From: Lampropedia aestuarii
GTDB lineage: Bacteria > Pseudomonadota > Gammaproteobacteria > Burkholderiales > Burkholderiaceae_C
NCBI RefSeq assembly: GCF_004803635.1
Contig: NZ_SSWX01000017.1
Location: forward strand, 33,209-97,208
Direction of reading: 5' to 3'
Length of the DNA: 64,000 nt
The notes below the pieces were generated by a model that did no database searches, was not told the origin of the DNA, and saw only the letters and a list, made by a program, of their open reading frames with translations. The stretch's first letter is position 1. Every line of letters starts with the position of its first letter. This document shows, in pieces, positions 364-46,206 of this stretch. The translations under genes were made by a program, and so were the position numbers.

Positions 364-624
364 GACTAATTTCCAATGCTGATTCTGTTATTGATTTTCC
401 TGATGAAAAGCCCTGAAAAGCATCTAACGCAAGTTGTTGCTTTTTTGTAAACATTGTGCTAACAGGTAGTCCCCAAGGCTTATCTATATCCATTCCCCAA
501 GTGAGAGGTAATTTTATTTTTGTGTCGATAGGAATTCTTCCACTGCCTAAATCAATGCTCATGTCTAAGATATCAGCTACGGCCATTGCTTCTGAAGAAC
601 AACTTATTGGAGAAATTAGTGCAC
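356..624 (-). pseudogene. Frameshifted C-terminal end of the RHS toxin tip
   Basis: This stretch continues the toxin tip in a different frame from the upstream RHS reading frame. The upstream frame runs through the residues SYDIPEDVLNAT and then into a short nonsense tail ending at 573. Shifting frame near 625, in a CGCG tract, restores an open stretch beginning RALISPISCSSEAMAVAD and ending with ITESALEISRD at 356. Two things support it as real coding sequence. It stays open to a stop that overlaps the GTG of the downstream membrane protein gene. It also has ordinary, non-repetitive composition, unlike the shadow frames of the RHS core. The tip counted from the DPLGL motif to this stop is about 168 residues. 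I do not recognise its fold. Confidence 0.55.
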
Positions 625-2450
625 GCGGTAGCGTTGAGTACATCCTCAGGGATGTCGTAGCTATCATCATCACTCCATGCCCTTGTGATCCCATACCAAC
701 TAGCGCCCCATCCGTACGTAGATTTAGACAAAACGACCGCTCCGCCAAATTTTGATAAAGTGGTAGGCTCTGGTGCTGCCAACAACGCGCTCCCTACAAT
801 CATGCCCGCTCCGGATGCGAGCATACCCAATGTATTGAGCGCGAGGCTACCCCATCGAACCAATCCAAGCGGATCACTGTCATTCGTCGGGTTGTTTGGA
901 TAACTGTAATGATTGAATCCACCAAACAACCCAATCGGATCCTGATTAATATAAGCCCCCAGCTGCGGGTCATAGTACCGATAGCGGTTGTAATACAAGC
1001 CCGTCACCCTGTCATGGTGCTGCCCCGGCATCCGAATATCCTGACGGATGGCATCAGGATCGGCGTTGTATTCATCTTGCAAATTGCCCCAAGGGTCGTA
1101 TTGCCCGGCCCAAATGATGTGGCCTTGCTCGTCGCTGAGCGCTAAAGGGGTGCCAATCTGGTTGCAGTGGTAGTAACGAATTTGCAGCGGGTTGGCGGCT
1201 GCTTCATCGTCGTGCCATTTGCCCAGGTGTTTGAGTTGGCGCTCCACTTCTTGCAGCACCGCGCTTTTGTGCCGCTGGATGTCCAGCGGTTTCATGTGCC
1301 CGCGCATGGCTTCAAACTGTTGATCAACCTGCTGCAAGAGGCGTTGTTGCTCGCTCAGCGTATCGCCTTGTTGGGGCTTGCGTTGGTAGAGCTGCAGCAG
1401 GGGTGTGAAGCTGCCGGGTTCGTAGATGGTGCTGGTGGTGCCGTGGGGGCTTTGGGTGCAGGTGAGGCGGTCGCCATCCCAGCCGTAGTAGGTGGTTTCT
1501 GGCTCGCTCAGCGGGTTTTCTTGCCCGTCAATGGCATCGCGCTGCACGGTTTGTGCCACGCGTCTGCCTAGGCTGTCGTAGCGGTAGAGGCTGATGCTGC
1601 TGCGCTGGCCTTGGGCGTTGAAGGTGGCCACAGCGGTGAGTTGGTTGCTGCTGTCGTAGTACAACTTTTGGCGGCTGCCATCGGCCAGTTGGACGCTGGC
1701 GGTGCGGTTGCCTTTGCCGTCGTAGCGGTACAGCGCCGCTTCGCTGTAGGCCACGCGGTTGTGCGGCCATTGGTGCACGGCTTCGTTCGGTTGCATTTGC
1801 CCTTGGCCCAGCGGGTTGAAGTGCGGGTTGCTCCATTGCGCGCGCACTTGTTCGGCCCAGTTGTCTTGCGCCTGGCGGTCATGGCCTAGGCTGGGCAGGC
1901 GGTTGCCTGCGGCATCAAAGCGCCAGTAGTGCGGCTGGCTTTGGCTGCGTTGCTGCGCGGCCGTTAAGCGGCCTTGGCTGTCGTAGCGGTAGTAGGTGTC
2001 GTAAGGGGTGTGCTGGCCGTGGGTGATGGCGCTGATTTGGCCCAGTGCGTCGTAGTGGTAGTGGCGCTGTTGGATCTGGCCGATGAGGGGCTCGGCCACG
2101 GTCAGGTTCTGTTGGGCGGGCAGTTGCCAGTGCTGTTGGTGCAACTGGCCCAGGGGGGTGTAGCTTTGCACTTGACTGGCGCCGTTGCCGTAGCGCCGCT
2201 GGGTTTCGCGGTGCAGGCTGTCGCGCTCAATGGCCAGCACTTCGTGCTGGCCTAAGTGGATGCCGTGCACGTGGCCTGCGCCGTAGAGCAGGTATTCGAT
2301 GGCGGGCAGCTGTGGGTGCCGGCTGCGTACGCGGTTGCCCAGCGCGTCGTATTGGTGGCGGATGTGGTATTCGTGCTCGGGTGGGTTTTGATTTTGGCGA
2401 GCTTGTGGTGAGGAGGTTCTGAGGGGGCCTCGCTGTCGGGTTGGGCCCAC
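573..2450 (-). CDS. RHS-repeat protein, C-terminal half with DPLGL tip boundary
   Basis: This frame carries the second half of an RHS/YD-repeat shell. Many YDxxGNR-type repeats are visible (for example RHQYDALGNRV, YYRYDSQGRL, LYRYDSLGRR). The conserved RHS-associated core end follows: a YYHCNQIGTPLALSD-like stretch, GQYDPWGN, then RMPGQHHDRVTGLYYNRYRYYDP. The shell closes at NDSDPLGL, encoded near 861, the usual boundary before the variable toxin. After that the tip has a glycine-rich hydrophobic segment (LGMLASGAGMIVGSALL) and KSTYGWGASWYG. Its first 20 or so codons are probably not translated in this frame, because homology joins the upstream frame near 2379-2395. Taken alone it would lack the PAAR and N-terminal RHS parts. 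It is best read with its neighbours as one broken gene of about 1,582 residues. Confidence 0.8.
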   Translation of the reverse strand: MGPTRQRGPLRTSSPQARQNQNPPEHEYHIRHQYDALGNRVRSRHPQLPAIEYLLYGAGHVHGIHLGQHEVLAIERDSLHRETQRRYGNGASQVQSYTPLGQLHQQHWQLPAQQNLTVAEPLIGQIQQRHYHYDALGQISAITHGQHTPYDTYYRYDSQGRLTAAQQRSQSQPHYWRFDAAGNRLPSLGHDRQAQDNWAEQVRAQWSNPHFNPLGQGQMQPNEAVHQWPHNRVAYSEAALYRYDGKGNRTASVQLADGSRQKLYYDSSNQLTAVATFNAQGQRSSISLYRYDSLGRRVAQTVQRDAIDGQENPLSEPETTYYGWDGDRLTCTQSPHGTTSTIYEPGSFTPLLQLYQRKPQQGDTLSEQQRLLQQVDQQFEAMRGHMKPLDIQRHKSAVLQEVERQLKHLGKWHDDEAAANPLQIRYYHCNQIGTPLALSDEQGHIIWAGQYDPWGNLQDEYNADPDAIRQDIRMPGQHHDRVTGLYYNRYRYYDPQLGAYINQDPIGLFGGFNHYSYPNNPTNDSDPLGLVRWGSLALNTLGMLASGAGMIVGSALLAAPEPTTLSKFGGAVVLSKSTYGWGASWYGITRAWSDDDSYDIPEDVLNATACTNFSNKLFFRSNGRS

Positions 2451-5104
2451 AGGCGTTGGATTTCGCCGCTGGTGCGTCCATACGGGTCGCGCTCTAGCAG
2501 GGTTTCGCTTTGCAGCCAGGGGTTGGCATCACCGGGCTGCTGCAGGTAGCTGCAGGCGCGGCTGAGCAACCCGGTGCTGTAGTGCAGCTCTTGCAGGCGC
2601 TGCACGGTGCCTTCTGCGCTGTGTTGGCTGCTGATGGCCTGCAGCAGTTGCCCGTCTGCGCTCCAGCGGTATTGGCTGTAGAGCCAGTGTTCTTTAGGGC
2701 TTTGGGCGTGGCCGTCGCGGTGGGCGCTGAGCTGGCCGGCTGCGTCGTACTGGTAGCGTTGGATGCGTCCGTCAAAGCCTTGCTCTTGGGTTTGGCGGTC
2801 CATCACGTCCCAGTCAAAGTAGCTGCTGGCACCGTTTTCGTTGATGAGCTCGATCAGGCGCCCGGCGCTGTCGTAGCGCATGTGCAGGCTGCTGGCACCT
2901 TGCTCGCGGTGGGTGAGGCGGCCCCAGAGGTCGTAGTGCAGTTGCACTACGGAGTCGGCGATGGCCTGGCCTTGACTGTCTTGCAGCCAGCTGCGGGTGA
3001 GCAGGCCCGCTTCGCTCCATTGGTTGCAGATGCGTTGGCCGTTGGCCAGCTCGGTGCCCAGCAGTTGGCCGGCTGCGTCGTAGTGGTGCTGTTGGCTGTG
3101 GCCTTGGGCGTCGCTGGTGCTGCTGAGCTGGCCCCAGGCGTCCCAGCTCCAGTAGGTGCTTTGGCCTGAGCAGTCGCTGTAGCGTGTTTGCTGGCCTGCG
3201 CTGTTGTAGCGCAGGTGTTTGTTGCCGCCACGCGCATCGGTGATGGTGGTGGGCAGGTGGGCGATCAGGGGCTCTTGCGTGGGGTCGGGGTAGTGGTAGC
3301 GCTGGGTGAGGGGCTCTTGCTCGCGCCCCATGCCCCGGGCGGTGGTGGTGGTGAGGACAAGGCGCCCGTAGCGGTCGTAGCTGTAGTCGGTGCGGATGCC
3401 TTGGGCGTCTTCGGTGTGGCTGAGTTGGCCCAGGGGGTTGTAGCGCACTTGGGTGTTCAGACCTTGGGCGCTTTGCGTGCCCATGACGCGCCCTTGTCCA
3501 TCGCGGCGGATGTAGCTGGTGTGCCCCAGGGCGTTGGTGGTGCTGCCCAGGTGGCCAAAGCCGTTGTAGGTGTGGGCGATGCTGGTGCCGTCGGCGCGGG
3601 TGTGGCGCGCCAGGCGTTTGAGTCCGCCCAGGCCGTGGTAGTCGTAGCGCTCTTGGCGCCCGAGGCTGTCGGTGACGAGGGTGCTGGTGCGTTTGGGGTC
3701 TAGCCGATCGTGCTGGTAGTCAAACTGCCAGCTCAGGCCTTGTTCGTTGGTGTGGATGCGCACGCGGGCGCCGGGCAGCGCGGGGCTGTGGTTTGCGCTG
3801 GCGTCTTCGCTTTCACTTTCATACACGTAGCGGTGCCAGGGGCCTTGGCGATGGCGGTGCGCGACCATGAGGTGGTTGGCGTATTGGAATTGGCGCACCA
3901 GCGCGCCGCTGCGGTCGTAGACGGCGCTGAGGTCGCCCTCTGCGCTGTAGGTGTAGCGCACCAAGGCAATGGGCTGGGTGGCGAGCGGGCTGTCGACTTG
4001 GGGGCTGTGTTCGAGCGTGATGCAGCTCAGGCGAATGCCACTGTCCATCTGCCAGCCCGCTTGGCCCCGGTGGCCTGTGCTGCAGTCCCACTCGGGGGGT
4101 GGCTGGTCGTTGGCCAGGGCGCGCTCGCGCGCTTGCTGGCGTTGCTGCCAGGCCGTGGCTGCGGCCGCGTTGCTGCAGTGGTAGTGCAATTGGTAGTGGC
4201 GACCTACCCCGTCTTCGATGGCCACCAGCATGTGCGCAGGCAGCGCCATGTCGCTGCTGTGGCCTTGGGCATCGAGCAGGCGGCGCTGGCCTTCGGGCAG
4301 GTGGGCGGCGTAGTGCAGGCGTTGCTGGCGACCAAGGGCGTCGCGCTTGCCGGTGAGCAGCCAGCGCTGCGCGGCCACCAAGGGGTGGGCAGTGGTTTTG
4401 GGCTCAAAGCACCACAGCACTTGGCCGTTGCCGCTGGTGGCAATGATGCAGTGGGGGTTGTCCACCCACTCAGCGGGGATGTGTTGCCAGCGCTGGTGGG
4501 CGCCCCAGTGGGCCGCGTCGGAGGCTTCGATGTAGTGCACAAAGCTGACGGGCTCGTCATGCGCTTGTGGGGTGGAAGCTGTGGGTGAGCGTGAGGGCGG
4601 TGTGATGGAGGGGCTTGAGGCAGCCCGAGGCTTGAAGGCGGGCACGGGCTGGCCCAGCATGCCCCCGCGCAGCAGCCAGATGTCTTCGCTGGGGCTGTAA
4701 AGGCTGGTGCCGGGCAGCAGGCGGTCTTCGAAGGTGATCACCCGCCCGCTGGTGTCAAAGAGTTGGGCCTGTGCGTCGACCAGCAGCAGTTGCAGCTCCA
4801 GCGGGCTTTTCCAGCCATAGCCAAACACACCGCAGGCGCCGCCGTGCTCGGCGTTGACGTAGCTGGAGTATTGGCGCTGCCAGGCCAGTGGCATGACCCC
4901 GGGCAGGGCAAAGTCCAAGTCGATGGTGCCCCAGAGGACTTTGGCGCCGAGCGAGACGCTGACGGGGCTGCCTTTGGCCACACCGCCAGGGCACTCTGAG
5001 CAGGCCACCCCACCTTGGCTGCCAATGAGCACGGTGCGGCTGCCCTGGATGATCTTGCTGCCTTTGACTGCATCGCCCAGGCGGGCGGCTGGTTGACCGC
5101 TCAT
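2252..5104 (-). CDS. PAAR/RHS polymorphic toxin, N-terminal part (frameshifted gene)
   Basis: The protein opens with a PAAR-like segment (residues about 3-55; ARLGDAVKGSKIIQGS, then a CSECPGG cluster). It then enters the N-terminal RHS domain (SPVSVSLGAKVLWGTIDLDFALPG) and long YD-repeats such as YSYDRYGRLVLTTT and YDAAGQLLGTELANG. PAAR-RHS proteins are type VI secretion effectors that sit on the spike and carry a C-terminal toxin in a shell. The start at 5104 is preceded by AGGAAAG. The frame is lost near 2379-2395, where one base appears missing in a CCCACCC tract; the last 40 or so residues of this frame (THPSTNTTSATNTT onward) are nonsense. Restoring that frame and the one near 625 gives a continuous gene 5104-356. 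No other T6SS gene is in the window. Confidence 0.85.
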   Translation of the reverse strand: MSGQPAARLGDAVKGSKIIQGSRTVLIGSQGGVACSECPGGVAKGSPVSVSLGAKVLWGTIDLDFALPGVMPLAWQRQYSSYVNAEHGGACGVFGYGWKSPLELQLLLVDAQAQLFDTSGRVITFEDRLLPGTSLYSPSEDIWLLRGGMLGQPVPAFKPRAASSPSITPPSRSPTASTPQAHDEPVSFVHYIEASDAAHWGAHQRWQHIPAEWVDNPHCIIATSGNGQVLWCFEPKTTAHPLVAAQRWLLTGKRDALGRQQRLHYAAHLPEGQRRLLDAQGHSSDMALPAHMLVAIEDGVGRHYQLHYHCSNAAAATAWQQRQQARERALANDQPPPEWDCSTGHRGQAGWQMDSGIRLSCITLEHSPQVDSPLATQPIALVRYTYSAEGDLSAVYDRSGALVRQFQYANHLMVAHRHRQGPWHRYVYESESEDASANHSPALPGARVRIHTNEQGLSWQFDYQHDRLDPKRTSTLVTDSLGRQERYDYHGLGGLKRLARHTRADGTSIAHTYNGFGHLGSTTNALGHTSYIRRDGQGRVMGTQSAQGLNTQVRYNPLGQLSHTEDAQGIRTDYSYDRYGRLVLTTTTARGMGREQEPLTQRYHYPDPTQEPLIAHLPTTITDARGGNKHLRYNSAGQQTRYSDCSGQSTYWSWDAWGQLSSTSDAQGHSQQHHYDAAGQLLGTELANGQRICNQWSEAGLLTRSWLQDSQGQAIADSVVQLHYDLWGRLTHREQGASSLHMRYDSAGRLIELINENGASSYFDWDVMDRQTQEQGFDGRIQRYQYDAAGQLSAHRDGHAQSPKEHWLYSQYRWSADGQLLQAISSQHSAEGTVQRLQELHYSTGLLSRACSYLQQPGDANPWLQSETLLERDPYGRTSGEIQRLWAQPDSEAPSEPPHHKLAKIKTHPSTNTTSATNTTRWATAYAAGTHSCPPSNTCSTAQATCTAST

Positions 5105-43444: not shown

Positions 43445-44797
43445 ATGGCATCTACACAATCCTCGCATGCTCGCAGTATTGAGAAGCTCCTTAACTCCGG
43501 GCCTCTTACCAGTAATATGCTGTGTGAATCACTGGGCCTCAGCCAGCCAACGGTTTCTCGTGCTCTCAAAAGCATGGGGGCGGACGTACTTAGATTCAAC
43601 ATTCATAAATCTATTCATTATCTGCTCAGAGACCATGCACGTGGCCACCTGATCGCCCCTATTGCGCGCGTCACGAAAGATGGTCAATTGCAGCGGCTTG
43701 GCGTTTTGGAGCCTGTTCGACCAGAAGGGTTCGTGTTGCTTGGCGCTACCGGTCAGGACAGTTATTCAGAAGGGCTGCCATGGTGGCTGTTTGACATGCG
43801 GCCACAAGGCTATTTGGGCCGTGCTTTCGTGCACAAGAATGCCAAGCAGTGGGAGTTGCCTGAGCGCTTGGTTGACTGGAGCGATACGAACGTGCTGCAA
43901 GCACTGCACCTGTATGGGGATGATTTGCCAGGCAATGTGCTTGTCGGTGAGCGCTCGGAGCAAGTGTTTATCAACCAGCCAATGCCGACTCCACTGGGAT
44001 TGGATGGGCGCGGCCAGGCTTATGCGACGCTATCGGCCAAGGCCGATGCAGGTGACATCGCTGGATCATCTGCCGGTGGCGAGCAGCCCAAATTCACGGC
44101 TTATGTGCAAACAGAAGACGGTCCAGCACATGTAATCGTCAAGTTCACTGCGCGCGATAACAATGCGATTTCTGAACGCTGGCGTGATCTGTTGCGGGCA
44201 GAGCACCATGCGCTGGAGGTGCTGCGCCAAGCGGGTGTACCTGCAGCCAAGACGCAGATCGTAGACAGTCAAGGCCAGCGTTTCCTGGAGGTCGTGCGTT
44301 TTGATCGCATTGGCGCTTTGGGGCGCGCCGCCTTGCTATCACTGAGTGCGCTGGATGCAGAGTTTGTTGGAATCGGCAGTTCCTGGTATGCGATCACGCG
44401 TGCACTGGTACAAGCGCAATGCGTCGTGCCTGAGGCAGCACAAGGCGCCGATTTGCTGTGGGCGTATGGCACATTGATCGGCAACACCGATATGCATGCG
44501 GGCAATCTTTCTTTCACCACGGACAGTGGCCGTCCCTACGCATTGGCCCCAGCCTATGACATGACTCCCATGGCCTTTGCACCTAAAGCCAGCGGAGCGA
44601 TAGCCAGTACATTGGCGCCCGCCACAATCGTGGCAGCCATCAGTGGTGAGATATGGCGCAAAGCGTATGTTTTGGCAGTGTCTTTTGCAGCGCGGCTGCG
44701 CAATGATGCTCAACTGAGTGAGCGGTTTGCCCCTTGCATCGCTGCGCTTGACGAGCATTTAGACATCGCCAAACAGCGCATTGACCGTATTGCTTAA
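43445..44797 (+). CDS. yjjJ: HipA-family kinase YjjJ/HipH with built-in DNA-binding domain
   Basis: A 450-residue HipA-like serine/threonine kinase. Residues 12-45 form a winged-helix HTH (LTSNMLCESLGLSQPTVSRALKSMG), replacing the separate HipB antitoxin. The kinase has the glycine-rich SSAGGEQPKF at 208-217, the catalytic loop GNTDMHAGNLSF at 346-357 and the metal motif YDMTPM at 371-376. Length and layout match E. coli YjjJ (HipH). Some HipA-family kinases inactivate glutamyl-tRNA synthetase; the target here is unknown. The fused HTH suggests autorepression, and the promoter carries repeated ATTCATT motifs. It stands alone. Confidence 0.92.
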   Translation: MASTQSSHARSIEKLLNSGPLTSNMLCESLGLSQPTVSRALKSMGADVLRFNIHKSIHYLLRDHARGHLIAPIARVTKDGQLQRLGVLEPVRPEGFVLLGATGQDSYSEGLPWWLFDMRPQGYLGRAFVHKNAKQWELPERLVDWSDTNVLQALHLYGDDLPGNVLVGERSEQVFINQPMPTPLGLDGRGQAYATLSAKADAGDIAGSSAGGEQPKFTAYVQTEDGPAHVIVKFTARDNNAISERWRDLLRAEHHALEVLRQAGVPAAKTQIVDSQGQRFLEVVRFDRIGALGRAALLSLSALDAEFVGIGSSWYAITRALVQAQCVVPEAAQGADLLWAYGTLIGNTDMHAGNLSFTTDSGRPYALAPAYDMTPMAFAPKASGAIASTLAPATIVAAISGEIWRKAYVLAVSFAARLRNDAQLSERFAPCIAALDEHLDIAKQRIDRIA

Positions 44798-45118
44798 GCC
44801 CGCTCAAGGCCTTGTTCAGCCACTTTGGGGCAATGCAAGTGGTCGTGGGACGTAGGGTGGCGCAGCTTCGCTGCCCACATCAGCTGCAGTTGAGTGTTTC
44901 TGAGCTGCAAGCGGCTTCTGACAGACGTTGCTGTTTCTTTTTGATCTGGTACTTTTTTGCGCAAGCAATAGACCCGTCCAAACTACCTTACTCCTCGCGA
45001 GTGAGATCTGTGTTTTTATAAGCTTTTGTTTCGCCTGTGAAAAATCCTTTTAAATGGTGTGTAATCATGCAGTGCTAACCTTGAATCATCACAGTTACCA
45101 ACACTGAGGAGAAGGTTC
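44798..45118. other. Noncoding gap before the M15 peptidase gene
   Basis: No gene is supported. A GTGGCGCAGC/GCTGCCCAC hairpin lies around 44857-44878, without a T-run. The second half becomes AT-rich and should hold the promoter of the peptidase gene, which has GAGGAGAAGG just before its ATG. Confidence 0.5.
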
Positions 45119-45691
45119 ATGGCTATAAATAGCGGAGCATATTGGGTTCGATGGGCGAAAGATAATATTCCAGACAGTTCGCAAATCATTGATCTTAGGC
45201 TCGGGTTTAGAGAGAGTGTGCAAGCATTTATTGATGCACTGGAGGCAGCTAATGCAACTGTCCTCATTGAATCCACCCGAAGAAGCGTAAAGCGCGCCTA
45301 TTTGTTCCATTGGTCTTGGCGGATTGCAACTGAAGATGTTAGAGCATCAGAGGCAATAGAAATGGATGGTGTCGACATCCAGTGGGATCATGGCAATGAT
45401 GCTGAGAGTAAGAATGGGGCATTGGAGATGGTACGTGGCTTTCGTCTAGCTCTTCCGCCAAGAAGTACAGTTGCACCATCGATGACGAGCAATCATATTA
45501 GGGGAGAAGCCATTGATATGAAAATTTGTTGGCTTGGCGATATGTCGGTTCAAGACGCAGACGGCAATATGCGGACAGTACCTTTCAAAACGAATGTCAA
45601 TACCAACAAAGAATTGCACAAAGTCGGAGCGAGTTACGGTGTCATGAAGCATCTCAATGATGCTCCTCACTGGTCGCTTAATGGGAGATAA
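45119..45691 (+). CDS. M15-type peptidoglycan peptidase without signal peptide
   Basis: A 190-residue protein with the M15/VanY zinc-peptidase signature SNHIRGEAID at 124-133 (His126 and Asp133 as metal ligands) and the second motif HW at 184-185. Family enzymes cut D-Ala or peptide crosslinks in cell walls. There is no signal peptide or membrane segment, so it needs another route to the periplasm: phage lysis, or delivery as a contact-dependent effector. Two base pairs after its stop comes a lipoprotein gene. No holin, spanin or other phage gene is nearby, which favours an effector/immunity reading over an endolysin. This is inference. The bulk of residues 1-110 does not match a domain I know. 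Confidence 0.7.
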   Translation: MAINSGAYWVRWAKDNIPDSSQIIDLRLGFRESVQAFIDALEAANATVLIESTRRSVKRAYLFHWSWRIATEDVRASEAIEMDGVDIQWDHGNDAESKNGALEMVRGFRLALPPRSTVAPSMTSNHIRGEAIDMKICWLGDMSVQDADGNMRTVPFKTNVNTNKELHKVGASYGVMKHLNDAPHWSLNGR

Positions 45692-45693
45692 AC

Positions 45694-46206
45694 ATGTCTC
45701 AATGCTTGTTTGTGATAGGTGCAACGCTAATAAGCTTAGTTGGATGCGCTGTTCAGACGCAATCCACGGCAGGTCAGCAAGAAAACACTTTTGGCGTTCA
45801 AGAAAATATCGGTTGGACAGACGCCGCGTGCTTAGCCATCAAAAATGCCACGCTTGTGCCAGCGCAAACAGTGTGGTGGCTGGAAACCAATCAGCTACGC
45901 CCTGCACGTCGCCTTCAAGTGGTTGCGCAATCGGCTGACCCCGATGTATGCGCTGCCTTGTCGCCAGGACGCGCTGAAGTGAATCAAGGGGCCGGTTATT
46001 CTTTCTATGCGTTGTCGGCCAATGCGGCAGAGCTGGATTTCGGCATTGCTTTTTTGGAGCAGGCTGCCAGTGCGCAATACGAAGCCACTTCTTGCGTTAC
46101 ATCGGAAGGCGTTGCTTTTGAGGCAAAAACTCACAATCGCTCCGAGGAGCCGTGGAGCGGTTATTACTATTTGGGCTATGATGTGGAAAGCACTTGTCCT
46201 GAATAG
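45694..46206 (+). CDS. Lipoprotein of unknown function, possible immunity partner
   Basis: A 170-residue protein with a lipoprotein signal peptide and lipobox LVGC (Cys18). The mature part has several cysteines and no family I recognise. The gene starts 2 bp after the M15 peptidase stop, and its ribosome site lies inside that gene, so the two are coupled. A periplasm-facing lipoprotein next to an unexported cell-wall peptidase is the arrangement expected of an immunity protein. It could also be a cofactor or a simple envelope protein. Confidence 0.72.
   Translation: MSQCLFVIGATLISLVGCAVQTQSTAGQQENTFGVQENIGWTDAACLAIKNATLVPAQTVWWLETNQLRPARRLQVVAQSADPDVCAALSPGRAEVNQGAGYSFYALSANAAELDFGIAFLEQAASAQYEATSCVTSEGVAFEAKTHNRSEEPWSGYYYLGYDVESTCPE

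Follow-up and report, generated by a model that had tools for sequence, protein, structure and literature searches.

Which function is served by a gene pair in which a putative cell wall peptidase, devoid of an export signal, is immediately followed by a lipoprotein? Such a pair is located in a stretch of 64,000 nucleotides of the Lampropedia aestuarii genome that was analyzed as a whole and is further called the window (Table 1). A sequence-only reading of this window had proposed a secreted peptidoglycan-cutting effector, coupled to its periplasmic immunity protein. Both ORFs are indeed present, with 2 bp between the stop codon of the first and the start codon of the second. The N-terminus of the first protein is not hydrophobic, as judged by eye without a signal-peptide program, and the zinc motif is complete (SNHIRGEAID ... 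DAPHW), in agreement with that reading. The second protein starts with MSQCLFVIGATLISLVGC, in which the lipobox was likewise recognized by eye without a signal-peptide program; its cysteine is invariant in five of the five close homologues, the window copy counted. The position of a Shine-Dalgarno-like motif inside the 3' end of the effector gene suggests that translation of the lipoprotein is coupled to that of the effector. Overall, a protein without Sec signal followed by a protein with an export signal (both by eye) is the layout sought in a T6SS effector-immunity pair.

Table 1. Features of the gene pair, its surroundings and related loci; positions refer to the window unless another locus is named.
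Feature	Position	Strand	Description
Shine-Dalgarno-like motif	45106..45115	+	GAGGAGAAGG; precedes the effector start; read by eye
Predicted effector ORF	45119..45691	+	190 aa; ATG start; single-domain M15_C-like zinc peptidase without signal peptide
Shine-Dalgarno-like motif	45683..45687	+	GGGAG; within the effector 3' end, ahead of the lipoprotein start; read by eye
Predicted cognate immunity ORF (family immA)	45694..46206	+	170 aa; ATG start; lipobox LVGC, A after the Cys
HipA-like kinase gene	43445-44797	+	immediately precedes the pair; has an N-terminal HTH of its own
Rhs gene	2252-5104	-	short PAAR-like start, DUF6531, RHS repeats
Rhs second frame	573-2450	-	RHS_repeat and RHS
Fused secreted ORF (G910)	L123 9162-9965	-	distant-immA half and immB half; beside the hcp-vgrG-effector group
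Aspzincin_M35 protein (G238)	L027 185-664	+	small zinc peptidase without signal peptide; just ahead of the pair
Amidase_2 and caspase-like (Peptidase_C14) protein (G538)	L115 10599-13577	+	993 aa; directly after the effector homologue
Effector and immB	L046 7989-8853		inserted in a prophage tail operon; similar loci exist

Neither protein gave a match above cut-off in scans against Pfam, PHROGs and NCBIfam (an F_bP_aldolase match with an E-value of 0.11 was discarded as chance). The identified neighbors encode a HipA-like protein, a DnaJ-like protein, DUF1348, TetR, a metallo-beta-lactamase-fold protein, an SSF transporter and an SDR. The HipA-like kinase carries its own HTH domain. No phage gene, phage lysis gene or holin is found among these identified neighbors, as the sequence-only reading had stated for lysis genes. 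The G+C content amounts to 45.7% for the effector gene and 51.9% for the lipoprotein gene, compared to 58.5% for the window. Because the effector is absent from the nine other genomes of the genus (0/9), the pair is accessory and has probably been acquired; the flanking DUF1348 gene is missing from these nine genomes as well.

Despite its lack of sequence matches, the first protein can be placed by its predicted structure. The AlphaFold2 model, computed from a 20-row alignment of the window protein and related loci, has a mean pLDDT of 94.8. Its best PDB matches by Foldseek are Ply500 (E-value of 1.4e-4), LysB4 and VanY. VIA-align returned Ply500 (Z-score of 7.9 over 112 residues), LysECD7 (7.0) and ChiX (6.4), all Z-scores of the effector being below 8 and therefore middling by the tool's own note, yet the list is uniform: 50/50 of the matches listed are M15-type enzymes or Hedgehog domains. 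VanX is also among the matches of these searches. The predicted fold is thus of the M15 type, with a structural-alignment identity of 11-16% to M15_C endolysins and ChiX, and PDB sequence searches returned only matches judged spurious.

The putative zinc ligands are H126, D133 and H184, with D181 as putative catalytic residue. The three ligands are invariant in 38/38 aligned homologues and the motif is therefore not a chance pattern; position 181 is an aspartate in 37 and a glutamate in one of the 38. In the residues published for the M15_C enzymes EndoT5 (H66, D73, H133 and catalytic D130; PMC10487532) and ChiX (H68, D75, H123 and catalytic D120; PMC5778951), the corresponding intervals are 7 and 3 positions long, as they are for H126-D133 and D181-H184, so that the M15_C arrangement (H-x6-D ... 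H, with an Asp three residues ahead of the second His) is present in the window protein. A candidate substrate-site arginine, R55, is located 71 residues ahead of the first zinc histidine, whereas the corresponding distance in ChiX is 21 residues. Judging from this difference, some 50 additional residues, including a conserved GVxIxW, seem to separate the arginine from the zinc motif in the effector family. The Pfam M15 models PF13539 and PF02557 do not match the window protein at E-values up to 1. Among the 20 aligned rows three match VanY and one M15_4, with best E-values of 0.02 and 0.014, and the G039 homologue matches M15_4 with an E-value of 0.0075. Since the Pfam M15 models stay under the cut-off, we consider the predicted enzyme a diverged M15 zinc peptidase that is M15_C-like rather than a member of M15_C. 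By analogy of the active site, L-Ala-D-Glu endopeptidase is its likeliest activity because of the M15_C-type aspartate. A delivery or otherwise separate domain in the first 110 residues, as had been suggested, is rejected: the fold alignments begin at residue 14 or 21, in a single case at 9, and end at 188-190, which makes these residues part of the peptidase fold.

The surroundings of homologues give an indication of how such an enzyme may be used. Searches of 60, 369, 399 and 398 genomes, in samples that overlap, yielded a full-length homologue in 16 genomes, our own genome (G000) counted. Dropped before this count were weak matches in G325, G261 and G214 (E-values of 1e-9 to 1e-11), fragments or weak matches in G404, G298, G136, G056, G527, G048, G582 and G506, the second matches of G256 and G475, and a second copy on contig C6 of our own genome. 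T6SS structural genes are present in the fetched stretch in 8/16 genomes, a count made without a random-locus control. G039 and G457 have vgrG along with tss genes, a PAAR gene is located directly upstream of the homologue in G492, G511, G512 and G625, hcp adjoins the homologue in G475, and in G910 the order is hcp-vgrG-effector-immunity-DUF4123. In three of these eight T6SS-linked genomes vgrG is part of the stretch, and the hcp, vgrG, PAAR and DUF4123 genes beside homologues pass Pfam. No T6SS gene occurs in the stretches of the other eight (G000, G238, G256, G478, G538, G661, G668 and G1011), three of which (G238, G478 and G661) have contigs of only 3 to 7 kb. This includes the nearest relatives, G238 and G256, with the G238 stretch being a 4.1-kb contig.

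The ORF after the effector encodes a secreted protein or a lipoprotein in 13/16 genomes, the export signals being read by eye. G457 is the fourteenth, with only a weak tblastn match to the secreted/lipoprotein ORF of G039, and the stretches of G538 and G1011 hold no candidate immunity ORF. The Aspzincin_M35 protein ahead of the G238 pair is possibly a second effector, and in G538 the large protein with Amidase_2 and Peptidase_C14 domains directly succeeds the effector homologue.

The linkage extends to T6SS clusters of two further organisms. In strain AR_0077 of E. coli, tssH and tssB flank the homologue, a 96-aa ORF begins 2 bp after it, and genes for Tae4/Tai4 and Tlde1 are found near it. 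Counted separately, the effector and the 96-aa ORF each occur in 111/5426 E. coli genomes, with a coverage of at least 80% in 105 and 110 of the matches, respectively. In Rahnella HX2 the domain forms the C-terminus of a 1162-aa protein encoded two genes past vgrG in a T6SS cluster. The check suggested by the sequence-only reading, whether homologous pairs are found next to vgrG, hcp or PAAR genes, is thus answered positively by half of the 16 genomes and by the T6SS clusters of these two organisms.

Genomes that carry the effector are also enriched in T6SS genes as such. In the order, 90/379 genomes have tssC, compared to 11/12 of those with a full-length homologue; the exception, G625, is absent from the tssC matches, but its inclusion in the 379-genome sample is not shown. 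Leaving out our own genome, tssC is present in 10/11, for which a binomial computed by hand, without regard to relatedness and genome size, gives a probability of about 5e-6. Eight carriers were tested separately and six of them have tssC. No match was obtained for G256, in which both effector loci are damaged, and for G1011, the next branch after G238 and G256, which lacks a candidate immunity gene as well. In G404 tssC is present though the effector is truncated.

Within our own genome, contig C21 gives matches to tssH, G, F, M, L, K, J, C, B, A, hcp and vgrG, and contig C15 carries an hcp-vgrG-PAAR group. The window pair is located on contig C9, apart from the tss genes on C21, in a genome that encodes a T6SS. 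Near the pair there is no T6SS structural gene, the sole candidate being the two-frame Rhs gene 40 kb off. The PAAR-RHS protein that had been reported for the window holds in part: an Rhs gene with a short PAAR-like start is present, but the Pfam PAAR model matches in this genome only on contigs C37 and C15. This Rhs gene (573-5104, minus strand) is probably frame-broken or misassembled near 2250-2450, since it is spread over two overlapping frames. The second copy of the pair, on C6, has an intact lipoprotein of 175 aa (55% identity) and a broken effector with a frameshift, an in-frame stop and a 5' part that is missing at an assembly N. Near position 1471 of this locus (L003) about 40 bp are repeated on either side of the single N, which resembles an assembly join; repeat and N coincide with the loss of the 5' part of this effector copy.

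The association with T6SS genes would also fit a rather different function. TagX of Acinetobacter is an M15-type L,D-endopeptidase required for T6SS biogenesis (PMC5061870), and an enzyme of this kind, or a housekeeping enzyme for growth, could remodel the wall with the lipoprotein as its partner or regulator. The location of the E. coli homologue between tssH and tssB and the presence of T6SS among carriers agree with this explanation. TagX, however, is described with two predicted transmembrane segments (PMC5061870), while no hydrophobic segment is visible by eye in the window protein, which also lacks an export signal and is encoded on another contig than the tss genes. Moreover, the gene is accessory, both in the genus and in E. 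coli, and an enzyme for biogenesis would not leave its partner alone at damaged loci, nor in G256 where tssC gives no match. A TagX-like or housekeeping role is therefore most improbable.

Two other explanations come from the phage side of the family, with names immA for the lipoprotein type of the window and immB for the E. coli type. A scan of viral contigs gave 35 homologue loci, of which 18 have immB, one has a distant immA-like protein (L077, with a truncated enzyme) and 16 have neither. Several of these 16 look like endolysins, and the small membrane ORFs that follow several viral-contig enzymes resemble holins by eye. At L058 two upstream ORFs match phage tail proteins, and the single ORF tested at L063 has no PHROG match. 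From such loci the window pair could be read as a phage-derived lysis cassette, i.e., a prophage remnant with an M15 endolysin and a spanin-like lipoprotein, and another branch of the family does approach the holin-endolysin layout. The window pair itself differs from it. Its identified neighbors comprise no phage genes, a scan of the viral contigs with a pattern and with tblastn did not detect close immA (the distant relative in L077 apart), and 50,697 phage records contain no homologue of the window protein at an E-value of 1e-5. The homologues of L046 and L058 have no counterpart in the phage records either. The tree places the window effector together with G238 and G256 (support of 100/99), beside G1011 (94/90) and outside the phage rows; the tree labels are clustered, with 8 changes versus a shuffled mean of 20.2, a contrast that is inflated by near relatives. 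A lysis cassette is thus a very unlikely origin of the window pair, and homologues are not always confined to prophages with holins, although one branch adjoins holin-like ORFs in viral contigs.

In addition, at least two of the immB loci are parts of tail operons. At L045 the pair is found in a prophage tail operon with PAAR directly upstream (Pfam E-value of 1e-24) and a tail sheath gene nearby, and at L046 in a prophage tail operon with tape measure and baseplate genes. At L046 and similar loci, effector and immB appear as an insertion in the operon. An effector-immunity pair could accordingly be delivered by a tailocin, a prophage tail or a type IV killing system instead of a T6SS. Weighed against the T6SS clusters and the PAAR, Hcp and VgrG genes that adjoin homologues in many species, and against the T6SS genes of our own genome, we regard such delivery as quite unlikely for the window pair.

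The distribution of the lipoprotein bears on its predicted function in immunity. A close immA gene follows the effector or its remnant on C6 and in G238 (29% identity), G256 (27%) and G404 (34%). A profile of five close immA sequences detected 10 places in 8/369 genomes, six of them strong. As five of the six strong loci had come through the effector search, only G256 C66 is independent evidence for the pairing; this locus, outside the building set of the profile, also adjoins an effector remnant. For three weak relatives, all from one genus, the stretch contains no effector, and the remaining place is in G098 (E-value of 7e-4). The three (L089, L090 and L091) are secreted immA-like proteins, and at L089 and L090 the gene directly follows pyrB-pyrC-like genes, as seen by eye. 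At four of the six strong loci (C6, G404, G256 C42 and G256 C66) the effector is damaged and the lipoprotein is open, some of which could be accounted for by errors in draft assemblies. Retention of the lipoprotein beside a damaged effector is what is expected of a protective protein and not of a mere partner subunit.

The lipoprotein also resembles, at a distance, immunity candidates next to T6SS genes. A C-terminal pattern is common to immA and the secreted proteins of Rahnella and G910 (both T6SS-linked) and of L077 (truncated enzyme). With a profile of six close immA sequences the Rahnella, G910 and L077 proteins score E-values of 0.009-0.02, compared to 0.17 for the best of 260 shuffled controls, and this close-immA profile misses L006. 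The reverse profile recovers the window lipoprotein at 2.2e-4, and the profile-profile probability between immA and the Rahnella/G910/L077 candidates is 92% over 79 columns. These sequence comparisons point to a distant and weak tie. A broad immA profile gives E-values of 5.6e-8 for the Rahnella gene and 4e-15 for the first half of the G910 ORF, values that are not independent since L077, L006 and G478 were in the profile. The first half of the G910 ORF is similar to the L077 protein (36%) and its second half matches immB (E-value of 2e-18), suggesting that two types of immunity have been fused against one effector. None of the tested members of the immunity families has a Pfam match above cut-off, and the model of the lipoprotein alone has a pLDDT of only 35.6.

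Taken together, the T6SS linkage of relatives and the over-representation of T6SS among carriers support the effector-immunity reading, and we propose that the window pair is probably an orphan ('auxiliary') T6SS effector-immunity module. In the mechanism that we infer, the first protein, which has no export signal, would be synthesized in the cytoplasm and become a small cargo effector of the T6SS of its own genome. The T6SS would deliver it to the periplasm of a neighboring Gram-negative cell, where cleavage at the predicted site would be toxic. The lipoprotein would be exported, anchored facing the periplasm, and would bind and inhibit the enzyme, thereby shielding its owner and kin. Extending this to the whole family is more tentative. 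Possibly, a single M15_C-like lineage, marked by its roughly 50 extra residues, has moved between lysis cassettes of phages, tail operons of prophages and operons of T6SS, and has been met in T6SS hosts by several periplasmic immunity families (immA and its distant kin, immB and others). These families may swap and fuse, and may outlive their effectors as orphan shields, even without tssC. The window pair would then be one such module.

If this holds true, an effector that cleaves L-Ala-D-Glu and is paired with an immunity lipoprotein would add a target bond to the T6SS repertoire; the characterized wall-cutting T6SS effectors of Salmonella, Tae2, Tae4, Tge2 and Tlde1, are reported to cut other bonds. 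It would also assign a function to mostly hypothetical proteins (14/15 of the E. coli rows listed, of 111 carrying genomes). The fused G910 ORF, finally, allows a direct test of how immunity against one toxin may arise twice.

The concept of an M15-type T6SS effector is already in print as a prediction. M15 domains have been assigned by sequence in the WHIX effectors (PMC12135965), in Tpe14 of A. baumannii (PMC6833914) and in LysM/M15 proteins of Neisseria (PMC10210955). In the accessible text of the literature outside subscription journals and preprints, M15-type or L-Ala-D-Glu T6SS effectors appear only as predictions. The effector family of the window, its extra stretch and its immunity families were not found in the literature searched, with subscription journals and preprints outside the scope. 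Similar to the window family, the WHIX and Neisseria effectors have an M15-type domain, in their case assigned by sequence, and putative immunity genes nearby, according to the accessible text of the reports. They differ as WHIX- or LysM-fused proteins (Neisseria also has an M15-only form) with a predicted M15 activity. TagX shares the M15-type L,D-endopeptidase nature, the tie to T6SS and a Ply500-like active site, yet it is an inner-membrane protein with two predicted transmembrane segments that is needed for T6SS assembly, and the accessible part of its report describes no immunity partner (PMC5061870). Ply500, LysB4, EndoT5 and ChiX have in common with the window effector the predicted fold and the H-x6-D and D-x2-H arrangement, whereas in the window family an additional segment separates the candidate arginine from the zinc motif. 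A close parallel by location is the VR1 ORF of Salmonella SPI-6, reported in 18/60 genomes (PMC10469887) and predicted to be an effector that acts as an L-Ala-D-Glu endopeptidase, next to an immunity ORF with a signal peptide. It has the same position between tssH and tssB as the E. coli homologue, the same predicted bond and an immunity ORF that follows. By its description, this Salmonella ORF has 32 aa and an identity of 30% to ChiX; the window family differs in the lack of a Pfam M15 match above cut-off, in some 50 additional residues and in its immunity candidates.
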